From: Planctomycetia bacterium
GTDB taxonomy: Bacteria; Planctomycetota; Planctomycetia; Gemmatales; HRBIN36
Length of the DNA: 64,000 nucleotides
Reading direction: 5' to 3'
Assembly (NCBI GenBank): GCA_016795155.1
Contig: JAEUIE010000053.1
Location: 1-64,000, forward strand
The notes under the pieces: generated by a model
Database searches by the model: none
What the model was told of the DNA's origin: nothing
Seen by the model: the letters and a program-made list of their open reading frames with translations, nothing else
Made by a program: the position numbers and the translations under genes
In this document: positions 27,719 to 48,882 of the stretch, piece by piece
Layout of the letters: each line of letters begins with the position of its first letter
How positions within the stretch are numbered: the stretch's first letter is position 1

Positions 27719-27773
27719 TTAATATGTCGGGTACGGCCAACCTTGGATGGATCATCGCTCAGGCAACCGTGAT

Positions 27774-28679: not shown

Positions 28680-28692
28680 GGATCAAACGGAC

Positions 28693-31599: not shown

Positions 31600-34547
31600 G
31601 CGGAACTATGCAAGCGAGTTCTGAACAACGCATGGAATTCATCTGGCGCCGCCTGCAGGAGCCGCCCGAGTTGTTCGGCATTCCACTCTCGTTTGATCCC
31701 TACTGGTGGCTGGCGGTTCTCATCCCGCTGCTGCTGATTGCCTTCGTACTGATCATCCTGAACTGTCGCCGCGAGAGTCGGACGATTGGTATGAAGTGGG
31801 CCAGCCTGCTCGCCCTGTTACGCATCGGCGTTTGTCTCGTCATTGCCATAGTCTGGCTGTTGCCCGCCATGCGGCAGGTAACTCTCAGCGAACAACAGTC
31901 GAAAGTGGCTTTGCTGTTCGACGTTTCTGCCAGCGTCACGGAAACCAGCGACCAGAGTGCTTCTGAGGAACCCGGTGCATTACGACTGACCAGACAGGAA
32001 GAACTCATGGCATTGCTGCAAAAAGCAATGCCTGCAACTCCGGGTGCGCCTGTTCAACCCGATTTTCTAACCAAACTTCTCGAGAAAAACCCATTAGTTT
32101 GCTATCGCTTTGGTGATACGCTCGATGCTGAACCATGGCAGATTGCTGCGAACACGCGGCCTAGTCTGGGAAAATGGAAATCGCTTCTGTTTCCCGGCCA
32201 GCCAATCACGCTTGATGAAGTACCACCTGCTGATTTGATGACTTCCCTCAGCGATCTGGCGACACAAGCACAAGCTGAACAGCAATCAGGGCAGGCATCA
32301 CGTGCCAAATCCCTCGTGGATGCATTTGAACGTATTTCTGCTGAACGCAAGACGCTGCAGAATCGCTTGCCGGAACGTACCAATCTGGGTACCGCAGTAC
32401 GTGAATTGCTCCAGAAAGAGAAAGGGCAGTTGCAGGGAGTCATTATCTTTTCCGATGGCAAATCAACCGCTGGTTCCAGTCAGGATTTGAAGGAAGCACT
32501 CAGCCTGGCTCGTCAAGATAATGTACCCATCTTCACGGTAGGTCTTGGCTCAGCACAGTCGATTCCCAATCTCCGCCTGGTGGATGTGCTTGCGCCCGCC
32601 CGCGTTCAGCCCGAAGACGACTTCCCCGTTCGCGTGGCAGTGGAAGGTGATAACCTGACTGCAGGTCAAGCCGCCTCGGTCATTCTGCAGGTAGAGAAGC
32701 CTGGTGAAGCGCCATCCGATCTGCCGGCGCAGCAGGTCAATCTCCTGCAGGCTGCCGGACAGCAATCGCGAGGAACTGCGGAATTCCGCATTACCAACCC
32801 GAAAAAGATCAAGGGAGAATGGAAATTCCGGGCTCGAGTCGTGCCCGTGGCAGGTGAACGCACTCGTGCCGATAATAGTTCAACCGATGCAAGTCTAGTC
32901 AAGGTTGAGGACCGTAAGTTGAGTGTGCTGCTCTTCGCCTCAGCAGCTACCAGAGAATATCAGTTTGTCCGCAGCCTGCTGGTGCGTGAAGCGGAAAAGT
33001 TTGAATTCAGCATCGTGCTGCAATCCGCCCAGAATGGCACTGTCCAGGATATTGATCCCAAGCGGTTACTGGATCGATTCCCCACCGTGCTGCGTGCGAG
33101 AGACGCAGACCCCAACAACCTCGGCAATTATGATGTCGTGGTGGCATTCGATCCGGACTGGCGATACCTGCTGGCAAAAGAAGACAGCATGGGCAGGGAA
33201 TCGAGTCAGGAACTGCTGCGTCGCTGGGTGCAGGAACAGGGCGGCGGGCTGGTTACCATAGCCGGCCCGGTGAATACCTTCAACCTGGTGCGCGATCCGG
33301 AACTCGCAATTATTCAGAATCTCTACCCGGTGATCTTTGATGATTCTCCCGATGCCCTGCATATCCTGGATCGGTCCAACCGTGAACCCTGGGCTTTGAA
33401 CTGGGACCCCAGTGCCAGCAGTCAGCCCTACCTGGATCTCAATGATTCGAGTTCGCCAGGAAACTTTTTCGAAGGGTGGAATGCCTTTTTCGATCTGCAG
33501 AAACAGGGAGATGTACCACAGATAGATATGCCTTCCTCGCGAGGCTTCTTCAGTTATTTCCCTGTCAGACAGGTGCGTGCAGGCGCCCAGGTGCTGGCAC
33601 GCTATGGCGATCCGAATCGCAAGGCGCAGACTCCGCAGGGTGAACGTCAGCCTTTCTTCGTCCTTTCCAAATCGGTCAAAGGGAATGTCTTCTACATTGG
33701 TTCCGGCGAAACGTATCGCTTGCGCAGCTTCAGTGAAAAGTATCACGAACGGTTCTGGACCAAGCTGCTGCGTGCCATGGGCAAACGTGAATCCTCACGT
33801 GGCCTGCTCATGGTCAGTGGAAGACATCATGAAGGTGATACCGTTCTGGTGGAGGCGGAACTGCTGGATAATGATCTGAAGCCACTGGCCGCCGATCCCC
33901 AGTCGCCGGTAATCCTGCAGGTCAAGGCGCCGCCAGCAGCTCGAGATGTTCCCAGGGAGTGGGCCGAAGGCATGCCCATGCAGCAGGATATGGGAAAGCC
34001 CGGTGCTTACTCCAGTCGGCTTCTCGTCAAGTCAGCTGGGAAGTATATTGTTGAATTAAGGGTGCCTGGCACGGGAGAAAAACTGACTGCCAGCTTCATC
34101 GTCGAAACAAGTGACCCGGAACGGGACAATACCCGGCCTGATCATGCATTGCTGCATCGCATGGCTTCAGTCAGCCAGGTTGTCACCCTGCTTGATGAGA
34201 AAAAGAGACCAGCTTTCATGGAAGCACTGCTGGATGCCCGTCAACGCATGACCGCTGATGCCAGAAATGCTCCTGGCGGTGCTGTCGCCAATCTTACTGC
34301 AGAGAATGAAACAGATCGTCTTTACTTTTCACTGAATTCGATGATGTGGATCACTGAATGCCTGGACAGTCATATTGTCCCCTACAGTACCGAAGGCAAA
34401 GTGTACGATTTGTGGGACAAAGGCATTTCCGTTCTGAATCATCTTGATCAGCCTGACAAGGCTGATGGTATTTCCTGGGCGCTTTGGCTGATAGGTGCAC
34501 TGCTCGGCACAGAATGGCTGATTCGCAAACTTCTCAGGTTGGCCTGA
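31596..34547 (+). CDS. Second VWA / GATase-like membrane protein
   Basis: A 983-residue membrane protein translated by ATGA overlap with the gene before it. Two N-terminal helices (about 38-57 and 70-90) precede a VWA domain with MIDAS D-V-S-A-S (109-113) and the strand V-I-I-F-S-D-G. The central part has a class I amidotransferase-like fold (Q-E-Q-G-G-G-L-V-T-I-A-G-P), and a C-terminal helix anchors the protein again. It is paralogous in layout to the BatA-like protein upstream. The two may form a heteromeric MIDAS complex at the cytoplasmic membrane that MoxR acts on (inference). Confidence 0.88.
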   Translation: MSGTMQASSEQRMEFIWRRLQEPPELFGIPLSFDPYWWLAVLIPLLLIAFVLIILNCRRESRTIGMKWASLLALLRIGVCLVIAIVWLLPAMRQVTLSEQQSKVALLFDVSASVTETSDQSASEEPGALRLTRQEELMALLQKAMPATPGAPVQPDFLTKLLEKNPLVCYRFGDTLDAEPWQIAANTRPSLGKWKSLLFPGQPITLDEVPPADLMTSLSDLATQAQAEQQSGQASRAKSLVDAFERISAERKTLQNRLPERTNLGTAVRELLQKEKGQLQGVIIFSDGKSTAGSSQDLKEALSLARQDNVPIFTVGLGSAQSIPNLRLVDVLAPARVQPEDDFPVRVAVEGDNLTAGQAASVILQVEKPGEAPSDLPAQQVNLLQAAGQQSRGTAEFRITNPKKIKGEWKFRARVVPVAGERTRADNSSTDASLVKVEDRKLSVLLFASAATREYQFVRSLLVREAEKFEFSIVLQSAQNGTVQDIDPKRLLDRFPTVLRARDADPNNLGNYDVVVAFDPDWRYLLAKEDSMGRESSQELLRRWVQEQGGGLVTIAGPVNTFNLVRDPELAIIQNLYPVIFDDSPDALHILDRSNREPWALNWDPSASSQPYLDLNDSSSPGNFFEGWNAFFDLQKQGDVPQIDMPSSRGFFSYFPVRQVRAGAQVLARYGDPNRKAQTPQGERQPFFVLSKSVKGNVFYIGSGETYRLRSFSEKYHERFWTKLLRAMGKRESSRGLLMVSGRHHEGDTVLVEAELLDNDLKPLAADPQSPVILQVKAPPAARDVPREWAEGMPMQQDMGKPGAYSSRLLVKSAGKYIVELRVPGTGEKLTASFIVETSDPERDNTRPDHALLHRMASVSQVVTLLDEKKRPAFMEALLDARQRMTADARNAPGGAVANLTAENETDRLYFSLNSMMWITECLDSHIVPYSTEGKVYDLWDKGISVLNHLDQPDKADGISWALWLIGALLGTEWLIRKLLRLA

Positions 34548-34563
34548 TACAGGAGTTCGATGG

Positions 34564-37500
34564 GTGTCCACAGCGACAACAACAAGACTGGTACAACGTA
34601 AGGCACCATCGCCATTGAGCAGCGGCTTAACCAGCCCGCTGGCAAGCCTGCAAACTGCCATCCGTCGTTATGTCGTTCTGGAAACACTGGCCCTGCTGGT
34701 ACTGGCTGCTTCCATCTGGTCGCTGGTCTCACTCTGTTTCGATTGGGGCATCTTTTTCAAACTGTTCGGATTTGATTACCTGCGTGAGGGATCGCCAGGC
34801 GTACAGACATTTCTGCGCACCAGTGCCCTGCTGATTCTGGTGGGTGTGGCGGGATGGATCATCTGGCGATATCTCGTCGTACGAATGCTCAAACCTCTTA
34901 CTGCATCTGATCTGGCCATGGCATTGGAACGAAGGTATCCAGGAGCACTGGCAGATCGACTGATTACCGCGGTGGAGTTGAATGATATCGAGGAAGCTGC
35001 CAGGAAGGGATATTCGCGCTCCATGCTCGAGGCAACTGCCCGGCGAGCTGAAGAATCGCTGCAGGGACTGAACGTTGGCGATGTTCTGAACACGCAGCGA
35101 CTTCACAAACGGTTGGGATTGGCAACAGTGTGCCTGCTCATCGCAACCTTGTTATTCCTGCTCATGCCGGAAATTCTGCAGACATGGGCTGAGCGCAATG
35201 TTCAGTACCGGCGCACACTCTGGCCACGAGAAGCCATACTTGAATTCACCGATTTTCAGAACCGGAACAAGGCGGTTCCGGTGGGCAGTGAATGGAAGGC
35301 GGTTATCCGTTCAGCCCGCTGGGCGGTGAAAGATGCATCTTCATCGGAAGGCTGGCGACCTCTCATGCCGGATGACTTTCAGAGCCTCAATACGCCTTGG
35401 GAACTGGTTGACATGCAGAAGGACACGTTGCTGTCATTCCTTCCTGCTGACTGGCATCATTGGTCGCTCGACCGGATTGAATCGAACCTGATCACCGAAG
35501 GAGCGCAACGGGAATTGGGGCTGACCTGGGCAAGCCAGGCCTTGCAACAGTTAAAGAGTGCTCAGGATGCGCTGCCAGATTCGATCAGATCATTTCTTCC
35601 GGAATCCATGCAGAAGTATTCGTTACAGCAGGTCTCGCAGGTGCTGGAGCTTGCACGGACCTTAACGCGTGAAGACGCCATCAGATTGCAGAAGGAGTTG
35701 TTCACACTGCGACCTGTCTCAAACGACATGGTCTGGACAGTTGCTTCCATGCATCAGACGGGGTTACCCATTCCTCTCTCCTCGATGGCATTTATTCAGA
35801 AACTAGCGTACGACCGCGACGCCAATGCACCGGCTTTTGCCATGCCCGCTGCTGACTGGAATCGCTTGCCTGTTGACTGGCAGAAGCTTGCCATCCGTGA
35901 TCTTTCCAAACGACTGAAGCTCTTTGCAGAATCCGAATCGGCTGATGCACTGGGCCAGCGGGTAGCATCGCAGGGCAAGGCATTCTTTGCAGATTTGCAG
36001 GCACGGGCAGCACTCACTAGTTTTGCAATACGTAAAGCATTTCGTCAGTTGACCATTCCAGACAAAATAACTCTGGAATTCGAGAATCTTTCCGAGGTGG
36101 ATGCGCGAGGCAAAGCCAAGCGTGGGCAGCCTGAGGTGAAACGTCAGCCATCCTCCAATGAATTCCAGTACGAGTTTAAGAAAGTCGATCGCCCGATGCG
36201 GCTACGGGCCTTGAGCAGTCAGACTTCCACGCCCTGGTATCGGGTGGATGTCAAGCCGTTGCCGACTCTGAAAAGCCTGGTGCGTTGGCAGGAAGAGCCT
36301 GGATATCTGCACAGCAGCGCGAGTAAAGTTCGCATTGGCCCGCTGGTCATGCCGGTAGATGGTGAGGAAACCAGAGTTCAGGCGCCGTTCGGTTCGCTCG
36401 TCCGTATCGAAGGAGAAAGTCATAAGGCGCTGTCTGATGTCAAAGCAACTGCTGATCTGCCTGAGCAAAATCCAGAAGTTGAACTGCAAAGCGACCAGGT
36501 CACGTTCCAGCTCCGCTTTACCAACCCCTTACGCGAAGATGTCAGGCTGAAACTGACTCTGAAAGACCAGGATGGCATCTCAGCAGTACGAACTCTGCTC
36601 ATCCTGATGACTCCCGATAAATCGCCTGAATTCATCAAGGGTCAGTTTGAGGCACTCAATCGCAAGTTTGTCACCAACAAGGCTGTCCTGCCGTTAAGCG
36701 TTTCCGTTCGCGATGATGTAGCTCTGCTCGCTTTGGAATACGATGTGAACATTCTGAAGAATGATCGAACAAGTGTGCATCAATTCCGTGTGCCGTTGCG
36801 TACCTTTGAGCCATACCCCGAAGTTCCTGCGATGCCAGGTGGATTGAATTTTGAAATCCGGGAAGACGTTACGCTACCCCGGCTGTTGACACATTACAAC
36901 CAGGCAGCAACGGGAGCGCCGATGTATCACCTCAGCCGACTCGGAGCATTGCCCGCAGGTTGGATGGTACTGATGCCGGATTGGAACTTTGGCCTGCACA
37001 AGGAGTATAGTCGCGACTATGTCGATCGCGCTATGTCGGGGCCGGTTTATACTAACAAAGATGAATATCTCGATACCTTGGAACTCCGGACCCTTGCCAA
37101 AAAGCCGATCACCGAGCCACTCCTCGAAACGCCCTATCGCATGGTGATTCGCATCGTAGCTCGCGACAATCGAATGAACCAGGGTAAGCCCGGTCATCAG
37201 GAAGGTTACTCGTCAGAATCGTTTGAATTCAATGTCGTCAGCGAACAGGATGTCCTGATTGAAGGCGGTCGTCGCGAGGAAGATTTGCGGGACCAATTTG
37301 AGGAATCTATCCAGGCCTTAAGGAAAGTGCGGAACGGATTGAAAAGAATCCGCGATGAGATCGATACGTCAACCACCGCGCGTGCCGAAGATGTCCGACG
37401 GGGCATGAACGATGCCCAGGATGCCACCAGGAGTCTGGCCCAGATCAGGGCAGCACTTGATGAGAAAGTTCTCAGGGAATTCAGGCAGATATACAGAGAA

Positions 37501-37866
37501 TTCGCTTTATGCAGAGTTGATGAGAGAGTTCTCAATCGAATTGATCAAAGAATCTGTAATCCCCTTTCAATTCTCTTGCAACCAGAGCAGGGGTTCGCCA
37601 AACTGGAAAGTGGGGTTGACACTCTGGCCCGACGATTGGAGAGTGAAGGCTCCTCCCTGCCGAAGAGTCTGCTGCAGGATCCCGTATCCCAGGCAGATCG
37701 AGTACTGCAGAAACTGGAAGAGATCCTGAACGACATGCGCAAACTCATCGAATTCAATGAAGCGCTGCGTGTCTTGCGTGATCTCATTAATAACGAACAG
37801 AAGCTGGTCGACGAGATGAAGAAACTAATTCAGCAAAAACTGAAGAATGATCTCGATGACAGGTAA
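34564..37866 (+). CDS. Large membrane protein with C-terminal coiled coil (DUF4175-like)
   Basis: A 1100-residue protein. Two N-terminal membrane helices (about 40-62 and 80-100) and a third at about 185-205 resemble the DUF4175 type. A long periplasmic region, rich in beta strands, leads to a C-terminal coiled coil (about 900-1095) dense in Arg, Glu and Leu. The GTG at 34564 is the start: AGGAG at 34551-34555 lies eight bases before it, while the nearby ATG 34560 is in a frame that stops after 13 codons. It follows the VWA gene by 16 bp. Function unknown; a structural spanning role is inferred. Confidence 0.82.
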   Translation: MSTATTTRLVQRKAPSPLSSGLTSPLASLQTAIRRYVVLETLALLVLAASIWSLVSLCFDWGIFFKLFGFDYLREGSPGVQTFLRTSALLILVGVAGWIIWRYLVVRMLKPLTASDLAMALERRYPGALADRLITAVELNDIEEAARKGYSRSMLEATARRAEESLQGLNVGDVLNTQRLHKRLGLATVCLLIATLLFLLMPEILQTWAERNVQYRRTLWPREAILEFTDFQNRNKAVPVGSEWKAVIRSARWAVKDASSSEGWRPLMPDDFQSLNTPWELVDMQKDTLLSFLPADWHHWSLDRIESNLITEGAQRELGLTWASQALQQLKSAQDALPDSIRSFLPESMQKYSLQQVSQVLELARTLTREDAIRLQKELFTLRPVSNDMVWTVASMHQTGLPIPLSSMAFIQKLAYDRDANAPAFAMPAADWNRLPVDWQKLAIRDLSKRLKLFAESESADALGQRVASQGKAFFADLQARAALTSFAIRKAFRQLTIPDKITLEFENLSEVDARGKAKRGQPEVKRQPSSNEFQYEFKKVDRPMRLRALSSQTSTPWYRVDVKPLPTLKSLVRWQEEPGYLHSSASKVRIGPLVMPVDGEETRVQAPFGSLVRIEGESHKALSDVKATADLPEQNPEVELQSDQVTFQLRFTNPLREDVRLKLTLKDQDGISAVRTLLILMTPDKSPEFIKGQFEALNRKFVTNKAVLPLSVSVRDDVALLALEYDVNILKNDRTSVHQFRVPLRTFEPYPEVPAMPGGLNFEIREDVTLPRLLTHYNQAATGAPMYHLSRLGALPAGWMVLMPDWNFGLHKEYSRDYVDRAMSGPVYTNKDEYLDTLELRTLAKKPITEPLLETPYRMVIRIVARDNRMNQGKPGHQEGYSSESFEFNVVSEQDVLIEGGRREEDLRDQFEESIQALRKVRNGLKRIRDEIDTSTTARAEDVRRGMNDAQDATRSLAQIRAALDEKVLREFRQIYREFALCRVDERVLNRIDQRICNPLSILLQPEQGFAKLESGVDTLARRLESEGSSLPKSLLQDPVSQADRVLQKLEEILNDMRKLIEFNEALRVLRDLINNEQKLVDEMKKLIQQKLKNDLDDR

Positions 37867-37913: not shown

Positions 37914-37983
37914 ATCGCATGATGAAATGCCACTCCGCTCCCTGGCGTAAGGTACAATGTACAATGCAGGTGGAGGTAAAGCG

Positions 37984-39735
37984 ATGCGAAGGATTATTGC
38001 ACTCACCGTATTCCTGGCAGGCAGCATCACCCTGCTGACATGGGGTCAGGATCAGGGCAAACAGCCTCCGCTCAATCTCTCCGGTACCCAGGACGATATT
38101 GCCAGAAGTTACAAGGCTCTTGAAGGCACTCTGATCAAGATTGCCAGCAAGCTCGAGCGCACCGGTACCAAGGAAGGAGTCGAAAAATCGCGGATCATCT
38201 TGCGTGCCTTGCAGGAAGCTCGTGAAAAAGATATCGCCATCAACCTGACTCAACTCGCAGATGTTCTGAAAGAGCCAGACATTGCCCGTCTTAAGAATGC
38301 AGTCGAAAAGGGTGGAGCAATCAAAGGCGACTTGGAGGCACTGCTGACAGCCTTACTCTCGGAACGCTCCTCCAAGGAGCATGTTGAATACCTCAAGCAA
38401 CTGGTCAAGGAACTGGAAAAGGCTATCCGCGATCAGAAAGTGGCCATCAGCAAGAATCAGTCGAGTGCCGTCGATAAGGAAGACGCAAAGAAAGCTCAGG
38501 AGGTAGCAGAAAAGCAGGTGCAGAAGATTCTGCAGCAGATCAAGGACTACGAAGCCAAGACTGGCCCCAAGCCAGGCGAGCAGAAAGACGGTAAGCCTGG
38601 CGAGAACAAACCGAACTCCAAATCAGACCAGAAAGATAAAGAGCAGAAATCCAAAGACCAGCAGGACAGGAATCCGCCAGAAAAGAAGGACAGTAAACCA
38701 CAGGATAAGTCAGCTCCATCAAAAGATGGAAAACCGAAGCCTGGTGAATCCAAAGATGGCCAGTCCAAGGAAGGCCAGTCTAAAGAAGGCGAACAGAAGG
38801 AAGGTGAGCAAAAAGAAGGTCAGTCCAAGGAAGGTCAGCCTAAAGAAGCTGAAGGCAAAGAAGGACTGTCCGGCAAGAGCAAGCCCGGTGAGCAGAAAGA
38901 AGAAGAACAGGATGCCGGCGTTCCTCGCAAGCGAATTCAGGACGCCAACGATTCACAATCCAAAGCCCGCGAAAAGATCGAAAAGAATGAACGCAAGAAT
39001 GCGATAAACGATCAGGAAGATGCGAAAACCAAGCTGGAACAAGCTCGTAAGAAGCTTGAAGAGATTCTGCGACAGATGCGTGAGGAAGAAATCGAACGTG
39101 TATTGGCTGATCTGCAGAAACGATGTGAAAAAATGCTGCAGATGCAGGAAATCATCAATGCAGGCACCAAGCAGGTGCAGGCACGCATCATCAGTCAAGG
39201 CAAATCTGAACGCGAAGATGAGCAGGTCTGCAGACGCTTAAGCGAAGATGAAGACAAGGTGCTGCACGAAGCTGACAATGCCATCGCAGTCATTGAAGCA
39301 GAAGGAACCGCGGTAGCATTCATTGAAGTCTTCCATCAGGTACGCAACGACATCATGCAGGTTTCACGCAGACTGGGTCGCATCGATGCCGGTCAGGAAA
39401 CACAGTTGATTGAAGAAGACATCATTGCCACGCTGAAAGAGATGATTGAAGCTTTCAAGAAACAGCAGCAGGAACAGCGCGACAAGAAGGAAAGCGAGCA
39501 GAACAACAATAATAACAATTCCAATTCTCAGGAATTGATTGACAAACTCGCAGAACTTCGGATGATCAAGGCTATGCAACTTCGTGTTAATATCCGCACT
39601 ACCCAGTGGGGCAAGCGATACGAAGGCGAGCAGGCCCAGGAACCGGCCATTGTTCAGGAACTGAATGATCTGGCCAAGCGACAGCTTCGTATCTGGAACG
39701 TGACAGATAATATCGCCAAGGGGAGGAATAAATGA
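37984..39735 (+). CDS. Exported Lys/Glu/Gln-rich coiled-coil protein
   Basis: A 583-residue protein with a signal peptide (I-I-A-L-T-V-F-L-A-G-S-I-T-L-L-T-W-G). Residues 180-320 are low-complexity, with Lys, Gln, Glu, Ser, Pro and Gly dominating and repeats such as Q-S-K-E-G and E-Q-K-E-G. A coiled coil follows (about 325-420), then a second helical region and the W-G-K-R-Y-E-G-E-x-A tail. Start at ATG 37984 because GGAGG lies at 37972-37976; ATG 37957 is earlier without one. It is exported and probably extended. Similar proteins accompany MoxR/VWA loci in planctomycetes as I recall. It overlaps the next gene (ATGA). Confidence 0.8.
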   Translation: MRRIIALTVFLAGSITLLTWGQDQGKQPPLNLSGTQDDIARSYKALEGTLIKIASKLERTGTKEGVEKSRIILRALQEAREKDIAINLTQLADVLKEPDIARLKNAVEKGGAIKGDLEALLTALLSERSSKEHVEYLKQLVKELEKAIRDQKVAISKNQSSAVDKEDAKKAQEVAEKQVQKILQQIKDYEAKTGPKPGEQKDGKPGENKPNSKSDQKDKEQKSKDQQDRNPPEKKDSKPQDKSAPSKDGKPKPGESKDGQSKEGQSKEGEQKEGEQKEGQSKEGQPKEAEGKEGLSGKSKPGEQKEEEQDAGVPRKRIQDANDSQSKAREKIEKNERKNAINDQEDAKTKLEQARKKLEEILRQMREEEIERVLADLQKRCEKMLQMQEIINAGTKQVQARIISQGKSEREDEQVCRRLSEDEDKVLHEADNAIAVIEAEGTAVAFIEVFHQVRNDIMQVSRRLGRIDAGQETQLIEEDIIATLKEMIEAFKKQQQEQRDKKESEQNNNNNNSNSQELIDKLAELRMIKAMQLRVNIRTTQWGKRYEGEQAQEPAIVQELNDLAKRQLRIWNVTDNIAKGRNK

Positions 39736-40796
39736 TCAGGACTATACGCCTTGGTATGTTGACCTTTGCCTGGTTCGTGCCTCTTGCTGTATGGGCTGAT
39801 GGCAAACGGCCTGTGCCACCTTCTCAGCCTCCTGCGCTGACTGATGTGCAGTCGCTGGGGCAGATTCAGGTGCCTGCTTTGGAACAGGCTCGCAAGCTTG
39901 CACAGGATTATGTCCTGCATCAAGCCGATGGCAAAGCCAAATGGGCTGCCATCGAATCTCTCTGGGCTGCTCAGGAAACCCGCACGCTGCTTGATCGTAC
40001 TGTCGATTCGCTCAGCCAGGTCGATCCCGCCATTGCCGAACTGGTCACCAGCATTCGCCAGCAACCAGGTACTTCACTGCTGCGTTCTCCCGTGTTGCAG
40101 GAAACCAGCTACACGCCCTATGTAAAAGATAATCTGAAACTGTTTCTGGCTCGTGCCCTTACCAACAAGCGCCTGCATGAAGATGCACTGGCCCTGTTGC
40201 GATCACTGACCCCGGAACAACTGATAGACCCGGCCAGCTACTATTTCTACCGGGCTGTTTGCGAAAATAAGCTGCGGCTTAAGGAAGACGGGTTGCTCTC
40301 CGCCCGTCGTCTGCTGTCATCCATGCAGAATACCGCCCCGGAACGATACCTGGTCGTTACCACACTGATGCAGGATGAAATGCAGAAGTGGGAAGATCAG
40401 GATCTTGGCGATGTAGCCCGCCGCATGGAAGAAATTGAAGGACGGCTTGATAACGCTCAGGGTGGTGCGAAAACGCAGGAAAAGCAGAAAGAAGTCATTA
40501 ACATGCTGGATAAGCTGATCAAGGACATGGAAAACCAGTGCCAGCAGTGCAACAAGAGTTCCCCAAGCCAGGGCCAGGCAAAAACCGAGCAGCATGCTCA
40601 AGAGAGTAAAGTCATGAATGGTGCCGGGAAAGGTGAAGTCGAGAACAAAAAACTGATCCTCACCGCTGATGTCTGGGGTAAAATGCCTGAGAAGGAAAAA
40701 GTGAAAGCCCTGGAAGCTGTCAATCGACAGTTGCCTGCCCATATTCGCGAAGCTGCTGAAGGGTTCACGAAGAAACTTCAGACAGGTGGCAAATAG
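39732..40796 (+). CDS. Exported hypothetical protein of the MoxR cluster
   Basis: A 354-residue protein starting by ATGA overlap. A signal peptide (L-T-F-A-W-F-V-P-L-A-V-W-A) is followed by a helical, TPR-like part (about 130-220) and a Lys/Gln-rich segment with C-Q-Q-C. The end is a conserved-looking W-G-K-M-P-E-K-E-K-x-K-A-L-E-A-x-x-R-Q-L-P motif. It resembles a partner of the preceding coiled-coil protein; both end in helical motifs with W-G-K. Periplasmic location is predicted. Function unknown. Confidence 0.78.
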   Translation: MIRTIRLGMLTFAWFVPLAVWADGKRPVPPSQPPALTDVQSLGQIQVPALEQARKLAQDYVLHQADGKAKWAAIESLWAAQETRTLLDRTVDSLSQVDPAIAELVTSIRQQPGTSLLRSPVLQETSYTPYVKDNLKLFLARALTNKRLHEDALALLRSLTPEQLIDPASYYFYRAVCENKLRLKEDGLLSARRLLSSMQNTAPERYLVVTTLMQDEMQKWEDQDLGDVARRMEEIEGRLDNAQGGAKTQEKQKEVINMLDKLIKDMENQCQQCNKSSPSQGQAKTEQHAQESKVMNGAGKGEVENKKLILTADVWGKMPEKEKVKALEAVNRQLPAHIREAAEGFTKKLQTGGK

Positions 40797-40866
40797 CCTG
40801 CGAATCAACTCTTGTCTGAGGGGCATGGCCAACCGTGCCCCTAGTCTGTTGGCGGAGTCAACGGTA

Positions 40867-42081
40867 GTGAATACATCCCGATTTCGACTTCTTCTACTCG
40901 TCTGTTGTGTTCTCACCGGCCTATTCTCATCATTGCAAGCCGGGGAAATCAGAACCATTGATGGCGCAAATCATGTCGGCGAAATTACCTCGCTCGACTC
41001 CTCGGAGGTCAAACTCCGCAGCGGCGAAGGCGACAAGATCACCTCCTTCCCGCTGAAAGAGGTTATTTCCATCGACTGGAACAATGCAGCACGCAACGTG
41101 ACTCGTGTTCCCTATCTCAAAGTAAAACTCATTGACGGCACGCTGATCTATTGCCTCACGCTTGAGATGAAAGCCAAGCAGATTGAACTGCTGCTCATCA
41201 ACGGCCATCGTTGGACAGTGACATTCGATCAAGTTCATGTCATTGTGTGTGATGCACAGGATACCGCATCGCTGGCTGCTTTTGAAGCTCTCGAAGCAGA
41301 ACGTCCCAGGGAAGATGTTATTCGTGTTCAAAGCCGTGAAGGCAACAACATAGAGCCATACCAGGGCCTGATACAGGAAGCCAATGCCCAGGGAACCCGG
41401 CTGGTTTTCAAAGCTGTAGGCCTCGATCAGGCATCCAATATTGATGTAGCCCGCCTGCGAGGACTCTATTTTCACCGCTCGAGTGTTGGTGTTGGCCCCC
41501 AGGCCATTGCCCGCATTTACGATACATTTGGCAATTGCTTTACCGCAACCGCTTGGCAGTGGGGCAAATCAGATTGCACTCTCACCACGCAACTCGGCAA
41601 ACAACTGGTGTTACCCAATTCCACTATTACCAAGATGGATTTGACTCCCGGCAAGCTGGTCTATCTCTCCGATCTGGAGCCGCTGAAAGTCGAAGAGTCG
41701 CCTATTCTGGCTGACCTCTTTCGTTACCGCAAAGATAAGAACCTGGAAGGCGGACCGCTCAGCGTAGGCAGGCGGGTCTATGAAAAAGGCCTGGCTCTCC
41801 ATTCCCGCACCATTCTTGAATACGATATCAAAGGCTACTCCTCTTTCCGCTGCACGCTAGGACTCGATGATGCCATGGCAGGTTCGGCTCATGCACTGGT
41901 ACGCATCGAAGGCGATGATAAGGTGCTGCTCTCTACCAACATTAACAGCCGCGAAAACAAACCGCAGCAGGTCAACGTCGATATCAAGGGGTTGCAGAAA
42001 CTGCGAATCGTGGTCGATTATGGCGAAGATCTCGATCTGGGAGATCACATCAACCTCGCCGATGCCAGGCTCATCAAGTAA
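40867..42081 (+). CDS. Exported protein with C-terminal NPCBM domain
   Basis: A 404-residue exported protein. The start is most likely GTG 40867: GGAG at 40854-40857 lies nine bases before it, and the signal peptide (F-R-L-L-L-L-V-C-C-V-L-T-G-L) follows immediately. ATG 40825 is an alternative. The middle part holds beta-rich repeats with L-K-E-V-I-S-I-D-W. The last 140 residues form an NPCBM/NEW2 domain (L-S-V-G-R-R-V-Y-E-K-G-L-A-L-H-S then G-L-D-D-A-M), a jelly-roll related to carbohydrate-binding modules. It is expected to bind glycans in the envelope. It lies 9 bp before the protease gene. Confidence 0.88.
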   Translation: MNTSRFRLLLLVCCVLTGLFSSLQAGEIRTIDGANHVGEITSLDSSEVKLRSGEGDKITSFPLKEVISIDWNNAARNVTRVPYLKVKLIDGTLIYCLTLEMKAKQIELLLINGHRWTVTFDQVHVIVCDAQDTASLAAFEALEAERPREDVIRVQSREGNNIEPYQGLIQEANAQGTRLVFKAVGLDQASNIDVARLRGLYFHRSSVGVGPQAIARIYDTFGNCFTATAWQWGKSDCTLTTQLGKQLVLPNSTITKMDLTPGKLVYLSDLEPLKVEESPILADLFRYRKDKNLEGGPLSVGRRVYEKGLALHSRTILEYDIKGYSSFRCTLGLDDAMAGSAHALVRIEGDDKVLLSTNINSRENKPQQVNVDIKGLQKLRIVVDYGEDLDLGDHINLADARLIK

Positions 42082-42090
42082 GGAATCAAC

Positions 42091-43857
42091 ATGTTTACAG
42101 GGCGATGGATGTTACTGCTCCTGGCTTGGTTGATCCTGCTCAATGGTTTAAAAGCACAGGAAAAGACCTCTCTGCAGGCAGCAGAGCAGAAACGTATCGC
42201 TGCGATTGATAAAGTACGTCCGGCAGTCGTGGCGGTCTTTGGTCCGGGTGGAGGCGGTGGTGGTTCAGGTGTTGTCATCCATCCCGATGGTTACTGCCTG
42301 ACAAATTTTCATGTCACCCAACCCTGCGGAAACTTTCTCTATGGCGGCCTGGCCGATGGCACGCTTTACGATGCGGTGATTGTTTCCATTGATCCTGTCG
42401 GCGATGTGGCCATGATTAAACTCATTCCCAAGGAGCCGGGTAAACCGTTCCCTTTCGCCCCGATGGGAAATTCTGACAAGGTGCAGATTGGCGACTGGTC
42501 CATCGCGATGGGCAATCCCTTTCTCCTTGCTACCGATTTCACACCGACAGTTACCTTCGGCATCATCTCTGGCACGCATCGCTACCAGGGACCAGCCGGC
42601 ATTATCCTGGAATACACTGATTGTCTGCAGACTGAGGCCTCCATCAATCCCGGCAATTCCGGTGGGCCCCTCTTCAATCTCGATGGTGAAGTCATTGGCA
42701 TCAACGGTCGCGGTTCGTTTGAGAAACGTGGCCGGGTGAACTCTGGTGCAGGGTATGCCATTTCCATTAACCAGATCAAGAATTTCATGGGGCACCTGCG
42801 GGGCGGACTGAATGTCGATCATGCAACGCTCGGCGCTTTGGTGAAAACGGAAGATGATGGCCGAACGCGGGTAACGAAAGTTCTGGAAACGACAGATGCT
42901 TATCGGCGAGGTTTACGAGAAGATGATGAACTGATTGCTTTTGCAGGCCGCTCGATCGGCAGTGTCAACCAGTTCAAAAACGTTTTGGGCATCTACCCCA
43001 AAGGCTGGCGGTTGCCCATGACTTATGTACACCAGAGTGTGGAAAAGGATGCCACCAGTATTCGCCGGGAAATCTTGGTCCGGCTTGCCGGCGTGCAGGC
43101 TCGCGAAATTGTCGGTGAAGGTAAACGCCGCGATCGCGAACAGCCTGCAAGGCCCCCCGCTGCTCAGGCGCCCAGCACCCATGCAGGCCGTAAACTCTAC
43201 AAGAAAAAAGAAGGTTTCACCAATTACTACTTCAATGAACTCGAACGGGATCGTGTGCTTGCAGCATTCGCGAAAACTGGCAAGTTTGATGCATTGACCG
43301 GCACTTGGTCGTTCCAGGGTGAAGTAGAAAGGCCACTCAAAAGTGAAGTCCTCCTCACCATCGATGACAAGCAGGTCTCTGTGAAAATCGATAACAAGGA
43401 ATCGATTATTGAACCACTCAAAGCGGGTGAATCGCCTGAAAACCTGGCATCACCGGCGGGCAGCGGTGGCTTGGCGATGACGCTCTATCACTGGCGGCGG
43501 TTTCTCATTCAGGGAAAAACCGGTTTCGATGCTGCGTTCTTTTATGCCGGCACCGAACCCTATTACCCGCTCGGTGAACCGGCCAACTACACGCTGGCTG
43601 ATGTGATCCAGACTGAATATGCAGCAACCGTCTGCAAATGGTACTTTAATCCCGCAGATGGCATGCTGCTCGGTTGCGAATGCTGGCTGCTGCCTGATAC
43701 CGATCCCTGTGAACTCACGTTTCTGGATTACGCCAAGACTGGTGACAACCTGCTGCCAACCCGCCTGCTGATTCGCCATGCAGATAGGGAGTTTGGTTTA
43801 TACAAATTGACAAAGGCCAGCCTGACACCAGGGCCAGCGAGGGAGGAAAAGAAATGA
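42091..43857 (+). CDS. Active S1C (HtrA-like) serine protease with PDZ
   Basis: A 588-residue exported trypsin-fold protease. After the signal peptide comes a Gly-rich loop, then His74 in T-N-F-H-V, Asp105 in V-G-D-V-A and Ser190 in N-P-G-N-S-G-G-P: the full triad. A PDZ-like domain follows (about 255-330) and then a C-terminal domain of about 230 residues without a recognised family. It would cleave misfolded or envelope proteins like DegP/HtrA (family knowledge). Its TGA overlaps the ATG of the next gene. It is the only intact enzyme among three trypsin-fold genes here. Confidence 0.93.
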   Translation: MFTGRWMLLLLAWLILLNGLKAQEKTSLQAAEQKRIAAIDKVRPAVVAVFGPGGGGGGSGVVIHPDGYCLTNFHVTQPCGNFLYGGLADGTLYDAVIVSIDPVGDVAMIKLIPKEPGKPFPFAPMGNSDKVQIGDWSIAMGNPFLLATDFTPTVTFGIISGTHRYQGPAGIILEYTDCLQTEASINPGNSGGPLFNLDGEVIGINGRGSFEKRGRVNSGAGYAISINQIKNFMGHLRGGLNVDHATLGALVKTEDDGRTRVTKVLETTDAYRRGLREDDELIAFAGRSIGSVNQFKNVLGIYPKGWRLPMTYVHQSVEKDATSIRREILVRLAGVQAREIVGEGKRRDREQPARPPAAQAPSTHAGRKLYKKKEGFTNYYFNELERDRVLAAFAKTGKFDALTGTWSFQGEVERPLKSEVLLTIDDKQVSVKIDNKESIIEPLKAGESPENLASPAGSGGLAMTLYHWRRFLIQGKTGFDAAFFYAGTEPYYPLGEPANYTLADVIQTEYAATVCKWYFNPADGMLLGCECWLLPDTDPCELTFLDYAKTGDNLLPTRLLIRHADREFGLYKLTKASLTPGPAREEKK

Positions 43858-44936
43858 GATTCTCCCGTTCTATTGCACTGCTGGTTTGCTGGTGCTTCAC
43901 TGGCTTCGCATTCGCCGACGATACCTTTGCCGGCATTGCCAGAGAAGTGAATCAGAAGATGGTCAAGATTTACGGGGCAGGTGGCTATCGTGGCGTGAAT
44001 GCCTACTGCACCGGCGTAGTAATCTCGCCCGATGGATACATCCTGACGGTCTATTCCCCCACCCTCGATACGCAGAATCTGCGCGTGCATCTGTACGATG
44101 GCACGCGTCATACCGCTGAACTGGTCGCGGCAGAACCACAACTCGATGTTGCCCTACTTCGCATCAAGGAACGGGAGTCATTCAAGGAACAGCCTTTACC
44201 TCACTATGACCTCTCCAAGCCCGCGCCACTGGCTCAGCCGGGCGATTGGGTGCTGGCGTTCTCGAACCAGTTTGAAGTAGCGGTGCGCGATGAACCGGTT
44301 TCCGTGCTACGGGGTGTCGTTGCCGCGGTCGTTCCTTTTGCTGGCAGACGAGGCATCACAGAAGCGAATTATAAAGGCATGGCTTACATCGTCGATGCCA
44401 TCACCAACAACCCCGGCGCCAACGGCGGCCTGCTCACTACCAGGCAGGGCGAACCACTCGGATTGATTGGCAAGGAACTGAAAAACACGCTTACCGAAAC
44501 CTGGGTCAACTATGCCATGCCACTCGCTCCCCTGGCCGATTTCGCCCAGAAAGCCATGAAAGGGCAATACAAACGCCAGGTTCGCAATGAAGATACAGTA
44601 ATCGAAGATAAGAAAGCCTATCATGGCATCACCCTCATCACAGATGTGCTCGACCGTACGCCGCCTTACATTGAAGACATCATTCCCGGTTCGCCTGCTG
44701 CCCAGGCTGGTCTTCGCATCAACGATCTGATCATCTTTGTTCGAGCTCCCCGGGCTGATGTTCCGGAAGAACTCGAAGAACGCCTGATCTCCAGTTGTAA
44801 GACCTTTAAGGAAGTCATGGCGCCAATATCGCCCGGCACCAGAATCGGGCTGGTCGTGCGCCGTGATGGACAACTCGTTACGTTTGAATTGACACTGGGT
44901 AAACCACTGCAACCTGTTACTCCTGCCAAGAAATAA
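43854..44936 (+). CDS. S1C-like pseudoprotease
   Basis: A 360-residue exported protein clearly homologous in layout to the protease upstream, but lacking two catalytic residues. In G-Y-I-L-T-V-Y-S the expected His is Ser68, and in N-P-G-A-N-G-G the nucleophile is Asn190. Asp98 in Q-L-D-V-A remains. A C-terminal PDZ-like domain covers about 250-350 (P-G-S-P-A-A-Q-A-G-L-R). The frame is intact and the start overlaps the active protease (ATGA). It probably acts as a regulator or substrate adaptor of the active enzyme (inference). Confidence 0.9.
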   Translation: MRFSRSIALLVCWCFTGFAFADDTFAGIAREVNQKMVKIYGAGGYRGVNAYCTGVVISPDGYILTVYSPTLDTQNLRVHLYDGTRHTAELVAAEPQLDVALLRIKERESFKEQPLPHYDLSKPAPLAQPGDWVLAFSNQFEVAVRDEPVSVLRGVVAAVVPFAGRRGITEANYKGMAYIVDAITNNPGANGGLLTTRQGEPLGLIGKELKNTLTETWVNYAMPLAPLADFAQKAMKGQYKRQVRNEDTVIEDKKAYHGITLITDVLDRTPPYIEDIIPGSPAAQAGLRINDLIIFVRAPRADVPEELEERLISSCKTFKEVMAPISPGTRIGLVVRRDGQLVTFELTLGKPLQPVTPAKK

Positions 44937-44939
44937 TTG

Positions 44940-46082
44940 ATGAATAGATACCTTTCCATTGATGTGCTGCGTGGCGTCATCATGATCATCATGGCGCTTG
45001 ATCACGTCATCGGCGCTATCGCAGTTCATCCTGCTCCTGAAATCTCGCTGCCAGGCAGTTTCTACTTCAAAGGCTACACCAGCGACGCTCAGCAATGGAG
45101 CAGACTGCTGACACATTTGTGTGCACCCGGCTTTCAGCTTCTGGCAGGCATGGGCCTGGCCATTTCAGTGGTTCGAGCAACGAAGGCCGGAACCAGTCAG
45201 GGGAAAATAACTCTCGATCTTCTGATACGGGGTGTCGTACTCATTCTTGCCGATTTCATCATCATGTATCCGATTTTTAAAGTCACCATCTTTTTCATGG
45301 TGCTTGCCTGCATCGGTTCCTGCACACTATGTTTCCTCGTGCTGCGCTGGCTACCACGCGACCTCATTGGCATTGTGGGTCTCGCCATCATTTTCCTGGC
45401 GCCGGTCTACGGCCCAACAGCTTTTACACAGCTTACTGGCGAAAGATACCTGCTTGATATCTGGACTAAGGTTGGATTTGGTAAGGGTAGTTTAGGCATT
45501 TTCTATCCCATCCTGCCCTGGCTTGGCATCTTTGCCGTGGGCTGGTGGATGGGACTCAAACTGTTCGAACAACCTGCTGAAGCTTCCGTTACACGTTCTG
45601 CCCGCATGTTTACTTACACAGGGCTGGCTTGCGTCATTCTTGGTATGGTTCTGCGTATGTCAGGCTGGACCTATGCCGAAGCTTTGCCACTCAATGGCGC
45701 TGATAACATGCAGCCTGCATTCTGGCAGTTTACCAAGTATCCGCCATCTATTGTCTTCATGACCTTGACCGTTGGAATACTGCTGATGTTGCTGGGACTG
45801 TTCCGCTGGCTGCTTGACGGTCCAGACAAGACTATTCCACTCTGGGCCAATGTGGTGGCAGTGTATGGCAGAACGGCTTTCTTCTATTTCATTGCACACT
45901 TCTACCTGATCGGTGTCATTGCTCTCTTCCTGGGACAGGAAGGTGTGACTAACCCCGATTTAAAACTCTCCTTCGGCATGGCGTACTTTATCTGGATTGT
46001 CGTGCTCTTCATTATGTTCCCGCTCTGTTACTTCTACGATCGTCTACGCCAGCGTTATCGCAAGGTTCTCCGTTATTTTTAG
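44940..46082 (+). CDS. DUF1624 / heparan N-acetyltransferase-like membrane protein
   Basis: A 380-residue polytopic membrane protein with about ten hydrophobic helices. The N-terminal signature R-Y-L-S-I-D-V-L-R-G-V-I-M-I-x-M-A-L-D-H is that of DUF1624 and the heparan-alpha-glucosaminide N-acetyltransferase superfamily. Members move acetyl groups across membranes onto sugars. It begins four bases after the pseudoprotease gene (ATG 44940; TTG 44937 is also in frame). In this cluster it may acetylate an envelope glycan recognised by the NPCBM protein (inference). Confidence 0.9.
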   Translation: MNRYLSIDVLRGVIMIIMALDHVIGAIAVHPAPEISLPGSFYFKGYTSDAQQWSRLLTHLCAPGFQLLAGMGLAISVVRATKAGTSQGKITLDLLIRGVVLILADFIIMYPIFKVTIFFMVLACIGSCTLCFLVLRWLPRDLIGIVGLAIIFLAPVYGPTAFTQLTGERYLLDIWTKVGFGKGSLGIFYPILPWLGIFAVGWWMGLKLFEQPAEASVTRSARMFTYTGLACVILGMVLRMSGWTYAEALPLNGADNMQPAFWQFTKYPPSIVFMTLTVGILLMLLGLFRWLLDGPDKTIPLWANVVAVYGRTAFFYFIAHFYLIGVIALFLGQEGVTNPDLKLSFGMAYFIWIVVLFIMFPLCYFYDRLRQRYRKVLRYF

Positions 46083-46087
46083 CGAGT

Positions 46088-48145
46088 ATGGATATGTCTG
46101 CATGGATTTGCCTGACACTCTGTTTGCTGCAGCCACCCGCAGGCGATGTGCATGCTGAACTGGAAGCTGCAACCCGGAAAGCACTCTCCCAGATCGCTCC
46201 TACCGTAGTGCAGGTACGTACCGTAGGTGGAGCTGAATTCATCGGCAAGCGAGAAGGCACGGTGCAGCGCGGCACCGGTCCCACCACTGGTACCATTGTC
46301 AGTGCCGACGGTTACATTCTTTCCAGTTCCTTTAATTTCGCCAACAAGCCTGCTGCCATCACGGTCATGATTCCCGGCAGAAAGGATCCATTGGCAGCCA
46401 AAGTGATTGCCGAAGACCAGACACGTATGCTGACACTGCTCAAGGTTGAAGCCACAGGATTGCCTGTTCCCGCAGTTGCTCCACAGAAAGAACTGAAAAT
46501 CGGCCAATGGGCCATGGCCGTCGGACGAACCTGGAGCGATTCACAAAACACCATGCCCAGCGCCAGCGTCGGCATCATCAGCGCTCTTGACCGCGTCTGG
46601 GGCAAGGCGCTGCAGACTGATGCCAAGGTATCACCCGTCAATTACGGCGGACCGCTAGTTGATCTGCAGGGGCGTGTCATCGGCATCCTGGTGCCTCTTG
46701 CTCCACGAGGCGAATCAGAAACTGCCGGAGTGGAATGGTACGATTCAGGCATCGGTTTTGCCGTGCCTTTCGATGATGTGCAAGCCGTGTTGCCCAAACT
46801 GAAGCAGGGCAAAACACTGCAAAAGGGCCGCATGGGCGTCATCATGAAAAACGAAGACCCCATCATGACCGAAAGTGAAATCACCAGCGTGACCCTTGAA
46901 TCGCCCGCGAGCAAGCTCGGCATCAAGCCAGGCGATAAGATTGTGAGTGTCGATGGCAAGCCGATCAAGAACCAGGCTCAGTTCCTGCACGCCATGGGGC
47001 CGAAGTACGAAGGCGATACCATTTCACTGAAAATCAAACGAGGTGAGGAGATACTCTCTTTTGAATCAGTGACCCTGGCTGGCCAGCCTGCCAGCCATGT
47101 GCATGCATATCTCGGCATTCTGCCGGTGCGTGATGACAATGAAAACGGTGTACTGGTAAGGTATGTCTATCCTGAATCGCCCGCCGCGAAAGCCGGCATT
47201 GAACCAGGCGACCGCATCATGCGCATGGATAACGTTCCCATCAGCGATCGTAACTTGCTCCTGGCCCTGATGAACCGCATGCTTCCAGGCATGCAGACAA
47301 AACTGGTGGTGAAGAAGCCCAAAGAATCAAAAACGCTCACAGTGGCTTTGGCATCTCTCGATGATGCATTGCCAGTGGGCGAACTGCCAGTAGGCACCGC
47401 AAAAAAAGCATTGGAACAACGAAAACCATTGCCTGGCGAGTCACCTGCGCCAGGCAAAGCTCCGAGCAAACGGCCAGCCGAGAAAGCCCCTCCCTCAAAA
47501 ACCGTACCTGCAGCGAAACCGAAAACCGGCTACTACGAAGTGAACGACACCACCAGTGGCCGCTCCAGTTGGTATTACGTTCCGGAAGATTACGATCCCA
47601 ATATCTCGTACGGGGTGGTGCTCTGGCTGCATCCAGCGGGCGACGCCATGATGGAAGGTATGCTTTCCGTCTGGAAGCCGATCTGCAACCAGCATCATCT
47701 GATACTCATGGCGCCACGCGCCGAAAACCAGCAGGGCTGGATGACCAGCGAATCTGATCAAATTCAATCGGAACTACGTGCACTGCTGAATCAGTACACG
47801 ATAGACAGACAGCGCATCGTCGCGCATGGCCTGCGGCAGGGTGCTCAGTTTGCCCTCTATATGGGCTTTGATGCCCGGGAAATGATCCGTGGCGTGGCTT
47901 CCGTAGGAGGCAGCCTCGCTCAGCCTCCCAAGGAAAATGTTGATCAGCAAAGGCTCAGCTTCTTCCTGGTGGCAGGCGAACGGGATCCGCAGATCGAAGC
48001 TATCCGGGCGGTGCCGGGGAAACTGAAAGAGAATCGTTACCCGGTCAATTACTTCGAATTAACCGGGCAGGGGAACGGCTATATCACCGATGTGAATGTC
48101 TTCGAGCAGTTGATCCACTGGATCATTGGTCTCGATCGCCTTTAA
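46088..48145 (+). CDS. Double pseudoenzyme: S1C-like, two PDZ, hydrolase-like
   Basis: A 685-residue exported protein. Residues 25-235 form a trypsin-like fold in which the His position is Phe82, the Asp position Met114 and the Ser position Tyr186 (S-P-V-N-Y-G-G-P). Two PDZ-like domains follow (about 245-335 and 340-415, each with S-P-A-A/S-K-x-G-I-x-P-G-D). A Pro/Lys-rich linker (440-480) leads to an alpha/beta-hydrolase domain (482-685) with L-W-L-H-P-A-G-D. Its nucleophile elbow reads G-L-R-Q-G: Arg583 stands where Ser is expected. The frame is intact. It most likely binds substrates or partners rather than catalysing. The stop overlaps the convergent gene by four bases. Confidence 0.9.
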   Translation: MDMSAWICLTLCLLQPPAGDVHAELEAATRKALSQIAPTVVQVRTVGGAEFIGKREGTVQRGTGPTTGTIVSADGYILSSSFNFANKPAAITVMIPGRKDPLAAKVIAEDQTRMLTLLKVEATGLPVPAVAPQKELKIGQWAMAVGRTWSDSQNTMPSASVGIISALDRVWGKALQTDAKVSPVNYGGPLVDLQGRVIGILVPLAPRGESETAGVEWYDSGIGFAVPFDDVQAVLPKLKQGKTLQKGRMGVIMKNEDPIMTESEITSVTLESPASKLGIKPGDKIVSVDGKPIKNQAQFLHAMGPKYEGDTISLKIKRGEEILSFESVTLAGQPASHVHAYLGILPVRDDNENGVLVRYVYPESPAAKAGIEPGDRIMRMDNVPISDRNLLLALMNRMLPGMQTKLVVKKPKESKTLTVALASLDDALPVGELPVGTAKKALEQRKPLPGESPAPGKAPSKRPAEKAPPSKTVPAAKPKTGYYEVNDTTSGRSSWYYVPEDYDPNISYGVVLWLHPAGDAMMEGMLSVWKPICNQHHLILMAPRAENQQGWMTSESDQIQSELRALLNQYTIDRQRIVAHGLRQGAQFALYMGFDAREMIRGVASVGGSLAQPPKENVDQQRLSFFLVAGERDPQIEAIRAVPGKLKENRYPVNYFELTGQGNGYITDVNVFEQLIHWIIGLDRL

Positions 48146-48882
48146 CTCTTCTTGCGTGTTCGTCCCACTTTCGGAATCCGTTTCGTCTTCATTTTGGGAT
48201 TCATTGCTCGGACTACGAAATACGCAACTTGAGCTAGCGAAGTCAGTGTGGCAGCTACATACGTCATGGCCGCTGCCTCCAATACTTTGCCCATCACCTT
48301 GTCTTCATCTTCCCCGACGAGTCCAGCGAGGATCAGGTTCTCCCGGCCACGGCGTGTGGCATTGAATTCCACAGGCAGGTTGAGCAGTTGAAACAACACC
48401 GTAATGGAAAACGCAGCGATGCCTGCAATCAGTATCCATTTGCCCAGCACCTGCTCACTGGCACTAAGCCCCAGCCCCGCCAGGATCATTGCAATACCTG
48501 TGGTAGAACCGAAACCCGCGAGCGGGACAATGAGGTTGCGAATACCGAGAAACGGATAGTTCATACCATCCTGAATCGCATGCCCTGCTTCATGGCAGGC
48601 AACTCCCAGTGCAGCGAGCGATTTGCCTTCATACACTTCCGACGATAAACGCAGTACCTTGCCTCGTGGATCATAATGATCCGACAACTTACCTTCCACT
48701 TCCTCCACAGTCGCTATAACACCTGCCTGCTTGAGCACCCGTTCCGCTGCTTCAGCACCAGTCAAACCGCAACGGGCCATCACTTTCTGGCCTTCAGCGA
48801 AATTCGTTTTCACCCGCCAGGCAGCCCATGCTGAAAGTAAGAGTGCAGGCGCCAGGAAATAAAGGTACTGCAGATCATTCAT
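48142..48882 (-). CDS. YugP-type zinc metallopeptidase
   Basis: A 246-residue membrane metallopeptidase. An N-terminal helix (L-Y-F-L-A-P-A-L-L-L-S-A-W) is followed by the catalytic H-E-A-G-H (97-101), which matches the H-E-x-x-H zinc motif. Two or three further helices are present (about 115-175 and 205-230), with E-F-N-A-T-R-R in between, a signature of the family. The tail is Lys/Arg-rich. It is predicted to act at the cytoplasmic membrane; substrates are unknown. It is convergent with the preceding gene, sharing four bases. Confidence 0.92.
   Translation of the reverse strand: MNDLQYLYFLAPALLLSAWAAWRVKTNFAEGQKVMARCGLTGAEAAERVLKQAGVIATVEEVEGKLSDHYDPRGKVLRLSSEVYEGKSLAALGVACHEAGHAIQDGMNYPFLGIRNLIVPLAGFGSTTGIAMILAGLGLSASEQVLGKWILIAGIAAFSITVLFQLLNLPVEFNATRRGRENLILAGLVGEDEDKVMGKVLEAAAMTYVAATLTSLAQVAYFVVRAMNPKMKTKRIPKVGRTRKKS

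Follow-up and report, generated by a model that had tools for sequence, protein, structure and literature searches.

Why would a bacterium keep, side by side with one apparently intact trypsin-fold protease, two relatives whose catalytic residues have been replaced? The question is raised by a stretch of 64,000 nucleotides from a planctomycete of the order Gemmatales (GenBank assembly GCA_016795155.1, contig JAEUIE010000053.1, positions 1 to 64,000; hereafter the window), which carries three such genes, here called H1, H2 and H3. A reading made from the letters alone, without database searches (the sequence-only reading), had proposed that H1 encodes an active HtrA-like protease and that H2 and H3 encode co-made pseudoproteases, which regulate it or deliver substrates to it. 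The first part of this proposal is strongly supported by the residues found in orthologs. Moreover, genome comparison shows one putatively live and two putatively dead lines inherited as a set, in a conserved operon with genes for MoxR, DUF58, BatA and VWA-domain proteins.

All three genes have open frames at the positions first given for them (Table 1), and their products exceed the Pfam cut-off for Trypsin_2 (101 bits for H1, 66 for H2 and 71 for H3). The end of H1 (...AAATGA, at 43857) and the ATG of H2 (at 43854) share an ATGA overlap, as had been read from the sequence. The original residue calls also hold. H1 has His74, Asp105 and Ser190, whereas profile alignments with solved DegP-type proteases confirm Ser68 and Asn190 at the His and Ser positions of H2 and Phe82, Met114 and Tyr186 at the three triad positions of H3. 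A detail not given before is that H2 retains the aspartate (Asp98), and thus two of its three triad residues are lost. The possibility that the triad residues had been misplaced was ruled out by the same alignments, in which Phe/Met/Tyr of H3 and Ser/Asp/x of H2 fall on the His/Asp/Ser of DegP-type enzymes. Many H2 proteins have a histidine shifted by one residue (for example, TVWSHVLD), but the serine is gone in these as well, and the H2 of the window has Pro there. By profile, the best solved relatives of H2 and H3 are DegP/DegQ-type proteases, and the presence of one PDZ domain in H2 and two in H3 conforms to the HtrA architecture. The structure model of H3 (predicted local distance difference test score, pLDDT, of 90.3) matches DegQ with an E value of 1.7e-31 over 428 columns.

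Comparison with orthologs yields the same division between live and dead. The triad of H1 is kept throughout (His in 100 of 100 sequences, Asp in 101 of 101 and Ser in 101 of 101). A search for counterexamples, set in advance, covered more than 100 sequences each of H2 and H3 and returned no intact triad, and the ortholog alignment that the sequence-only reading had recommended as a check reveals the loss of triad residues in all of them. Two H2 orthologs have Ser at position 190 and two distant ones have His at position 68; none has both. Judged by their sequences, H2 and H3 are HtrA-derived pseudoproteases and not proteases, because the triad is absent in every ortholog. They also stand out within their own genome, which is 5.28 Mb in size with 17 Trypsin_2 matches, because its other readable Trypsin_2 proteins retain a GxSGG-type serine. 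Since those proteins keep the serine and the orthologs share its loss, the missing triads reflect more than chance. As separate observations on such paralogs, an HtrA paralog (L002, G000:C16:44141-44557) has Glu in place of the catalytic Asp (NNELAVLK) with His and Ser intact, and a protein of 744 amino acids from the window genome (L005, G000:C2:122282-123667) has two Trypsin_2 matches, the second of which is partial and may be degenerate.

The two dead lines have altered sites of different kinds. All 124 H3 sequences have Tyr at the Ser position and an aromatic residue at the His position (Phe in 117, Trp in 4 and Tyr in 3), with the Asp position being chiefly Met inside the class of the window and variable outside it. 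Some sequence sets overlap between our collections, and near-duplicates were removed for an entropy test; in the resulting 105 sequences, less than 90% identical, Ser182, Pro183, Asn185, Tyr186, Gly187 and Gly188 of H3 have zero entropy. Because Tyr186 and its neighbours do not vary, the altered site is under strong selection and not in decay. In other words, the conservation pattern marks it as a specific new site. In H2, the His position is mainly Ser or Asn, and the Ser position holds Ala, Gly, Gln, Pro, His, Phe, Tyr and others, in addition to the two serines. The entropy ranks of its three triad positions are 125, 63 and 150 of 217. An NPGxxGG loop around the former active site is conserved, and the pattern is that of an old site free to drift within this loop.

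The distribution of the genes indicates how closely the three lines are tied. H2 was accepted at E values up to 1e-30 and H3 at 230 bits or more, a threshold placed in the gap between 231 and 197 bits. Across 392 genomes of the phylum, H2 is found in 66 and H3 in 67, with both in 66 and H2 alone in none; the sole genome with only H3 (G292) is fragmented. Within the class of the window, H2, H3 and the C-terminal domain specific to H1 are each present in 38 of 40 genomes (the window genome counted), and the two genomes without them are the same each time. Matches among 102 genomes of the order number 95 for H2 and 96 for H3, spread over about 40 genera. Because the trio is kept or lost as a set, it is suggested that the dead copies help to control the live one.

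Gene order and descent were compared over a wider sample. The order A592-B354-NPCBM-H1-H2-H3 occurs in most of 60 fetched loci, and most of the stretches around the best 80 of 399 H3 relatives extend to H1 and H2 in the same order, Planctomycetaceae-type loci included. Twenty loci outside the class of the window, picked by H3 score from genomes that are partly draft, have H2 and H3 in every case and H1 in 19; in the remaining one (L222), the contig breaks off within H2. A tree built from 76 trypsin domains gives H1, H2 and H3 one clade each (support 97/95, 100/99 and 100/99, respectively). The divergence into a live line and two dead ones predates the sampled lineages, because each clade spans the order of the window, other Planctomycetaceae-type loci and sequences from outside the class. 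Even without linkage the set can persist. For example, one genome (G206) has H1 at 4.06 Mb, H2 at 3.73 Mb and H3 at 6.61 Mb, and the trio is thus retained though dispersed. These observations bear on the notion that H2 and H3 are decaying duplicates, or pseudogenes in the making, as the lost catalytic residues and the drifting site of H2 might suggest. Conservation refutes it, and we assign it a negligible probability: some 95 genomes of the order have open frames, the clades are old and monophyletic, Tyr186 and its motif are invariant, and the genes survive even when dispersed.

In five of the loci outside the class (L225, L226, L228, L230 and L233), H1 and H2 are fused in a single frame of 858-1096 amino acids, in which the C-terminal region of H1 runs straight into H2. 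No second signal peptide was seen at these five junctions. Long H2 frames in GC-rich (guanine-cytosine-rich) genomes were not accepted as fusions unless both domains lie in frame, which is the case only for these five. The fusions belong to families f88, f50 and f45, and more than one origin is possible. Gene fusions are usually read as a sign of physical or functional partnership.

The explanation we favour, with a probability of roughly 0.5, is a hetero-complex of exported HtrA-type proteins, coupled to the MoxR/BatA proteins, whose single active subunit is controlled or supplied with substrate by two pseudoproteases. H1, H2 and H3 would be ancient paralogous HtrA-type lines that work as one exported unit, assembled into a hetero-oligomer, perhaps an HtrA trimer of mixed composition, and located at the envelope or in the periplasm. 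The sole cutting subunit would be H1, with a LolA-like domain that may bind a lipidated or hydrophobic ligand. H2 would be indispensable to H1 as a structural or activating partner, and some lineages have the two fused; H3, with its remodelled, Tyr-filled pocket and its PDZ domains, would bind a ligand or client and in this way gate H1 or supply it with substrate. Through the MoxR ATPase and the BatA/VWA proteins anchored in the membrane, the trio would then be coupled to envelope stress or client remodelling. Export is probable because H1, H2 and H3 all have signal-peptide-like N termini, as judged by eye. The idea that dead paralogs regulate the protease or deliver its substrates, as first put forward, fits the co-occurrence, the co-retention after dispersal and the H1-H2 fusions; physical contact among the three proteins and regulation are what we infer from these comparisons. 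A more specific version, in which a mixed HtrA particle exists on the scale of the phylum, with H2 as structural activator and H3 as a ligand-sensing gate with the invariant Tyr and an aromatic residue occupying its active site, the whole being an envelope protease controlled by MoxR/BatA, is offered tentatively and with the odds somewhat against it.

Several points weigh against the hetero-complex. Co-occurrence and fusion are also consistent with a shared pathway that involves no direct gating, and the genes for H2 and H3 lie far apart in some genomes. The residues at the dead site of H2 are unconserved, and its role therefore need not involve the former catalytic site. Profile searches recognise the LolA-like domain of H1 only in the class of the window and in one genome besides, and lipid sensing may be non-core. 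The chief alternative, which we consider less likely, is that H2 and H3 are independent chaperones or ligand binders of the same envelope pathway, with no contact with H1 and no role in its regulation. Both proteins have indeed retained PDZ domains, the trio genes can be dispersed, the hydrolase-fold domain of H3 is confined to one class but for a single locus (L235), and MamO, a pseudoprotease of magnetotactic bacteria, likewise has a separate metal-binding role, with a di-histidine metal site on its surface (PMC4794232). However, the single-chain H1-H2 fusions and the near-perfect co-occurrence point to a unit held together physically, at least in the case of H1 and H2.

H1 and H3 each have a further domain that the sequence-only reading had not described. 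The C-terminal 237 residues of H1 are modelled with a mean pLDDT of 94 and are predicted to have a LolA/LolB-type half-barrel fold, matching LolB in Foldseek (E 4.7e-5, probability 1.00) and 3bk5 with a VIA Z of 11.8 (root-mean-square deviation 4.7, 185 residues). RseB, an envelope-stress sensor, is found lower among the structure matches. The LolA/LolB family carries lipoproteins. Between this domain and the trypsin fold, a PDZ domain is recognised in 33 of 58 H1 orthologs, but not by Pfam in the H1 of the window.

The second is a C-terminal domain of H3 (window 47519-48145) that aligns to feruloyl and carboxyl esterases, with triad positions set by the solved esterase 3wyd. In the window these positions hold Arg583, Asp633 and Asn663 in place of Ser-Asp-His. 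The H3 of the window thus looks doubly dead, because it has lost the trypsin triad and has Arg583 and Asn663 in its hydrolase domain. The nucleophile is gone in nearly all Gemmatales-type proteins; among 79 H3 sequences, position 583 is Gly in 53 and Ser in 8. The hydrolase is not dead everywhere, however, as Ser583, Asp633 and His663 occur together in 5 of the 79, all from Planctomycetaceae-type loci, and the loss of this triad could be traced over time. These five proteins leave some room for the view that H3 (or H2) has been recruited to a different catalytic chemistry, such as an H3 with a working hydrolase and a trypsin domain that serves as scaffold. We judge this improbable given the prevalence of Gly583 and the residues of the window protein. 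In addition, the hydrolase domain is missing from H3 in 19 of the 20 loci outside the class (the exception being L235, from genome G231), yet the Tyr is kept there.

The genomic setting is likewise broader than first reported. The three genes had been described as one operon, and they do run in the same direction, but H2 and H3 are not adjacent and the operon extends beyond the span of the trio, which stands at its end. A string of genes for MoxR, DUF58, BatA, VWA and a large membrane and coiled-coil protein leads to A592, B354, NPCBM and H1 (Table 1). This string from MoxR to H1 is present in most of the upstream stretches examined, some of them outside the class, and the Bat-type gene order (MoxR, DUF58, BatA/VWA) was found in the window and in most of these stretches. 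Presumably, the operon genes form one transcript. Genes for a PQQ/TPR protein and a squalene-cyclase-like protein lie before MoxR in the same direction. A592 contains an extended low-complexity region made up of repeats of the EGQSKEGEQK type. The HGSNAT_cat-like gene between H2 and H3 is absent from the 60 other loci and was seen in the window genome only; it was therefore rejected as a member of the system and probably lies outside the conserved set. Downstream, a Zn_peptidase_2 gene on the minus strand (48142-48882) is convergent with H3 and overlaps its end by a few bases.

Table 1. Genes of the window operon in order along the plus strand; nucleotide positions are those of the 64,000-nucleotide window.
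Feature	Position	Strand	Description
MoxR-type AAA+ ATPase	26636-27718	+	PF07726, 216 bits
DUF58 protein	27747-28679	+	PF01882, 158.7 bits
BatA (aerotolerance regulator N-terminal) protein	28687-31599	+	PF07584, 57 bits; start codon uncertain
VWA-domain membrane protein	31596-34547	+	PF00092
Membrane and coiled-coil protein	34564-37866	+	1100 amino acids; no Pfam family; conserved in the operon
A592	37957-39735	+	Conserved coiled-coil, low-complexity protein
B354	39732-40796	+	Conserved; signal-peptide-like start; no Pfam family
NPCBM-domain protein	40786-42081	+	PF08305, 93.6 bits; conserved directly upstream of H1; start codon uncertain
H1	42091-43857	+	588 amino acids; HtrA-like protease, triad complete (His at 42310, Asp at 42403, Ser at 42658); signal-peptide-like N terminus; Trypsin_2 58-204; PDZ-like ~240-335; predicted LolA/LolB fold ~380-583
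H2	43854-44936	+	360 amino acids; predicted pseudoprotease (triad positions at 44055, 44145 and 44421); signal-peptide-like N terminus; one PDZ domain
HGSNAT_cat-like membrane acyltransferase	44937-46082	+	PF07786, 43.5 bits; between H2 and H3
H3	46088-48145	+	685 amino acids; predicted pseudoprotease (triad positions at 46331, 46427 and 46643); PDZ ~247-326 and ~339-421; alpha/beta-hydrolase ~480-685, Arg583 at the nucleophile position

Known systems place these proteins in context. DegP, DegQ, DegS and AlgW (HtrA, S1C) have the Trypsin_2 and PDZ architecture in common with the trio, but H2 and H3 are without the triad and H1 adds the LolA-fold domain. Complexes of the DegP type are built as homo-oligomers, with every subunit active. 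The existence of inactive homologues is not in itself novel, because a 2008 survey had already noted 42 prokaryotic homologues of serine proteases that are inactive (PMC2605481). The original note had called the S1C case little described and had offered iRhoms and ClpP/ClpR as comparisons. Two closer parallels exist, and they qualify that claim. MamE/MamO (with LimO) of magnetotactic bacteria is an already described pair in which an active HtrA-type protease is likewise encoded near a trypsin-fold pseudoprotease, and MamO is needed for MamE-dependent proteolysis whereas its triad is not (PMC4794232). That system has one dead partner and resides in the magnetosome island, in contrast to the trio, which has two dead lines, each with an altered site of its own, as well as the MoxR/BatA operon and the LolA-like domain. 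With the NCBIfam model for MamO (NF040961, cut-off 800 bits), H1, H2 and H3 score 39.6, 31.0 and 24.1 bits, and thus do not belong to the MamO family. For the planctomycete trio itself, the claim of novelty stands to the extent that no description was found in the open-licence papers searched, and the main text of a Planctopirus limnophila transposon study leaves the trio genes unmentioned (PMC10632474).

The other parallel is the CspB/CspA/CspC system of Clostridioides difficile spores, which has one active and two pseudoprotease paralogs and a live-dead fusion (PMC6636752). The likeness extends to the fusion of the active member to a dead partner. However, the Csp proteins have a subtilisin (S8) fold and act in spore germination, whereas H1, H2 and H3 are trypsin-type by profile, and H3 also by model. 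The two trios have no common ancestry and represent a convergent design. Finally, MoxR-vWA ternary conflict systems count inactive trypsin domains among their effectors (PMC7159879), and these systems and Bat-type MoxR-vWA operons share genes for a MoxR AAA+ ATPase, DUF58 and BatA/VWA proteins with the window operon. Unlike hypervariable effectors, the trio looks exported and HtrA-like, and it is a fixed set along the phylum.

The hypothesis is testable in cultured planctomycetes, and the conserved Tyr and aromatic residues at the dead site of H3 invite structural work. If the hetero-complex exists, it would give the MoxR/BatA/VWA operons, of which little is understood, an output in proteolysis, and the CspB/A/C trio a counterpart with the trypsin fold. 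It would also show that labour is divided in nature within an HtrA system, an arrangement maintained over several classes of planctomycetes.

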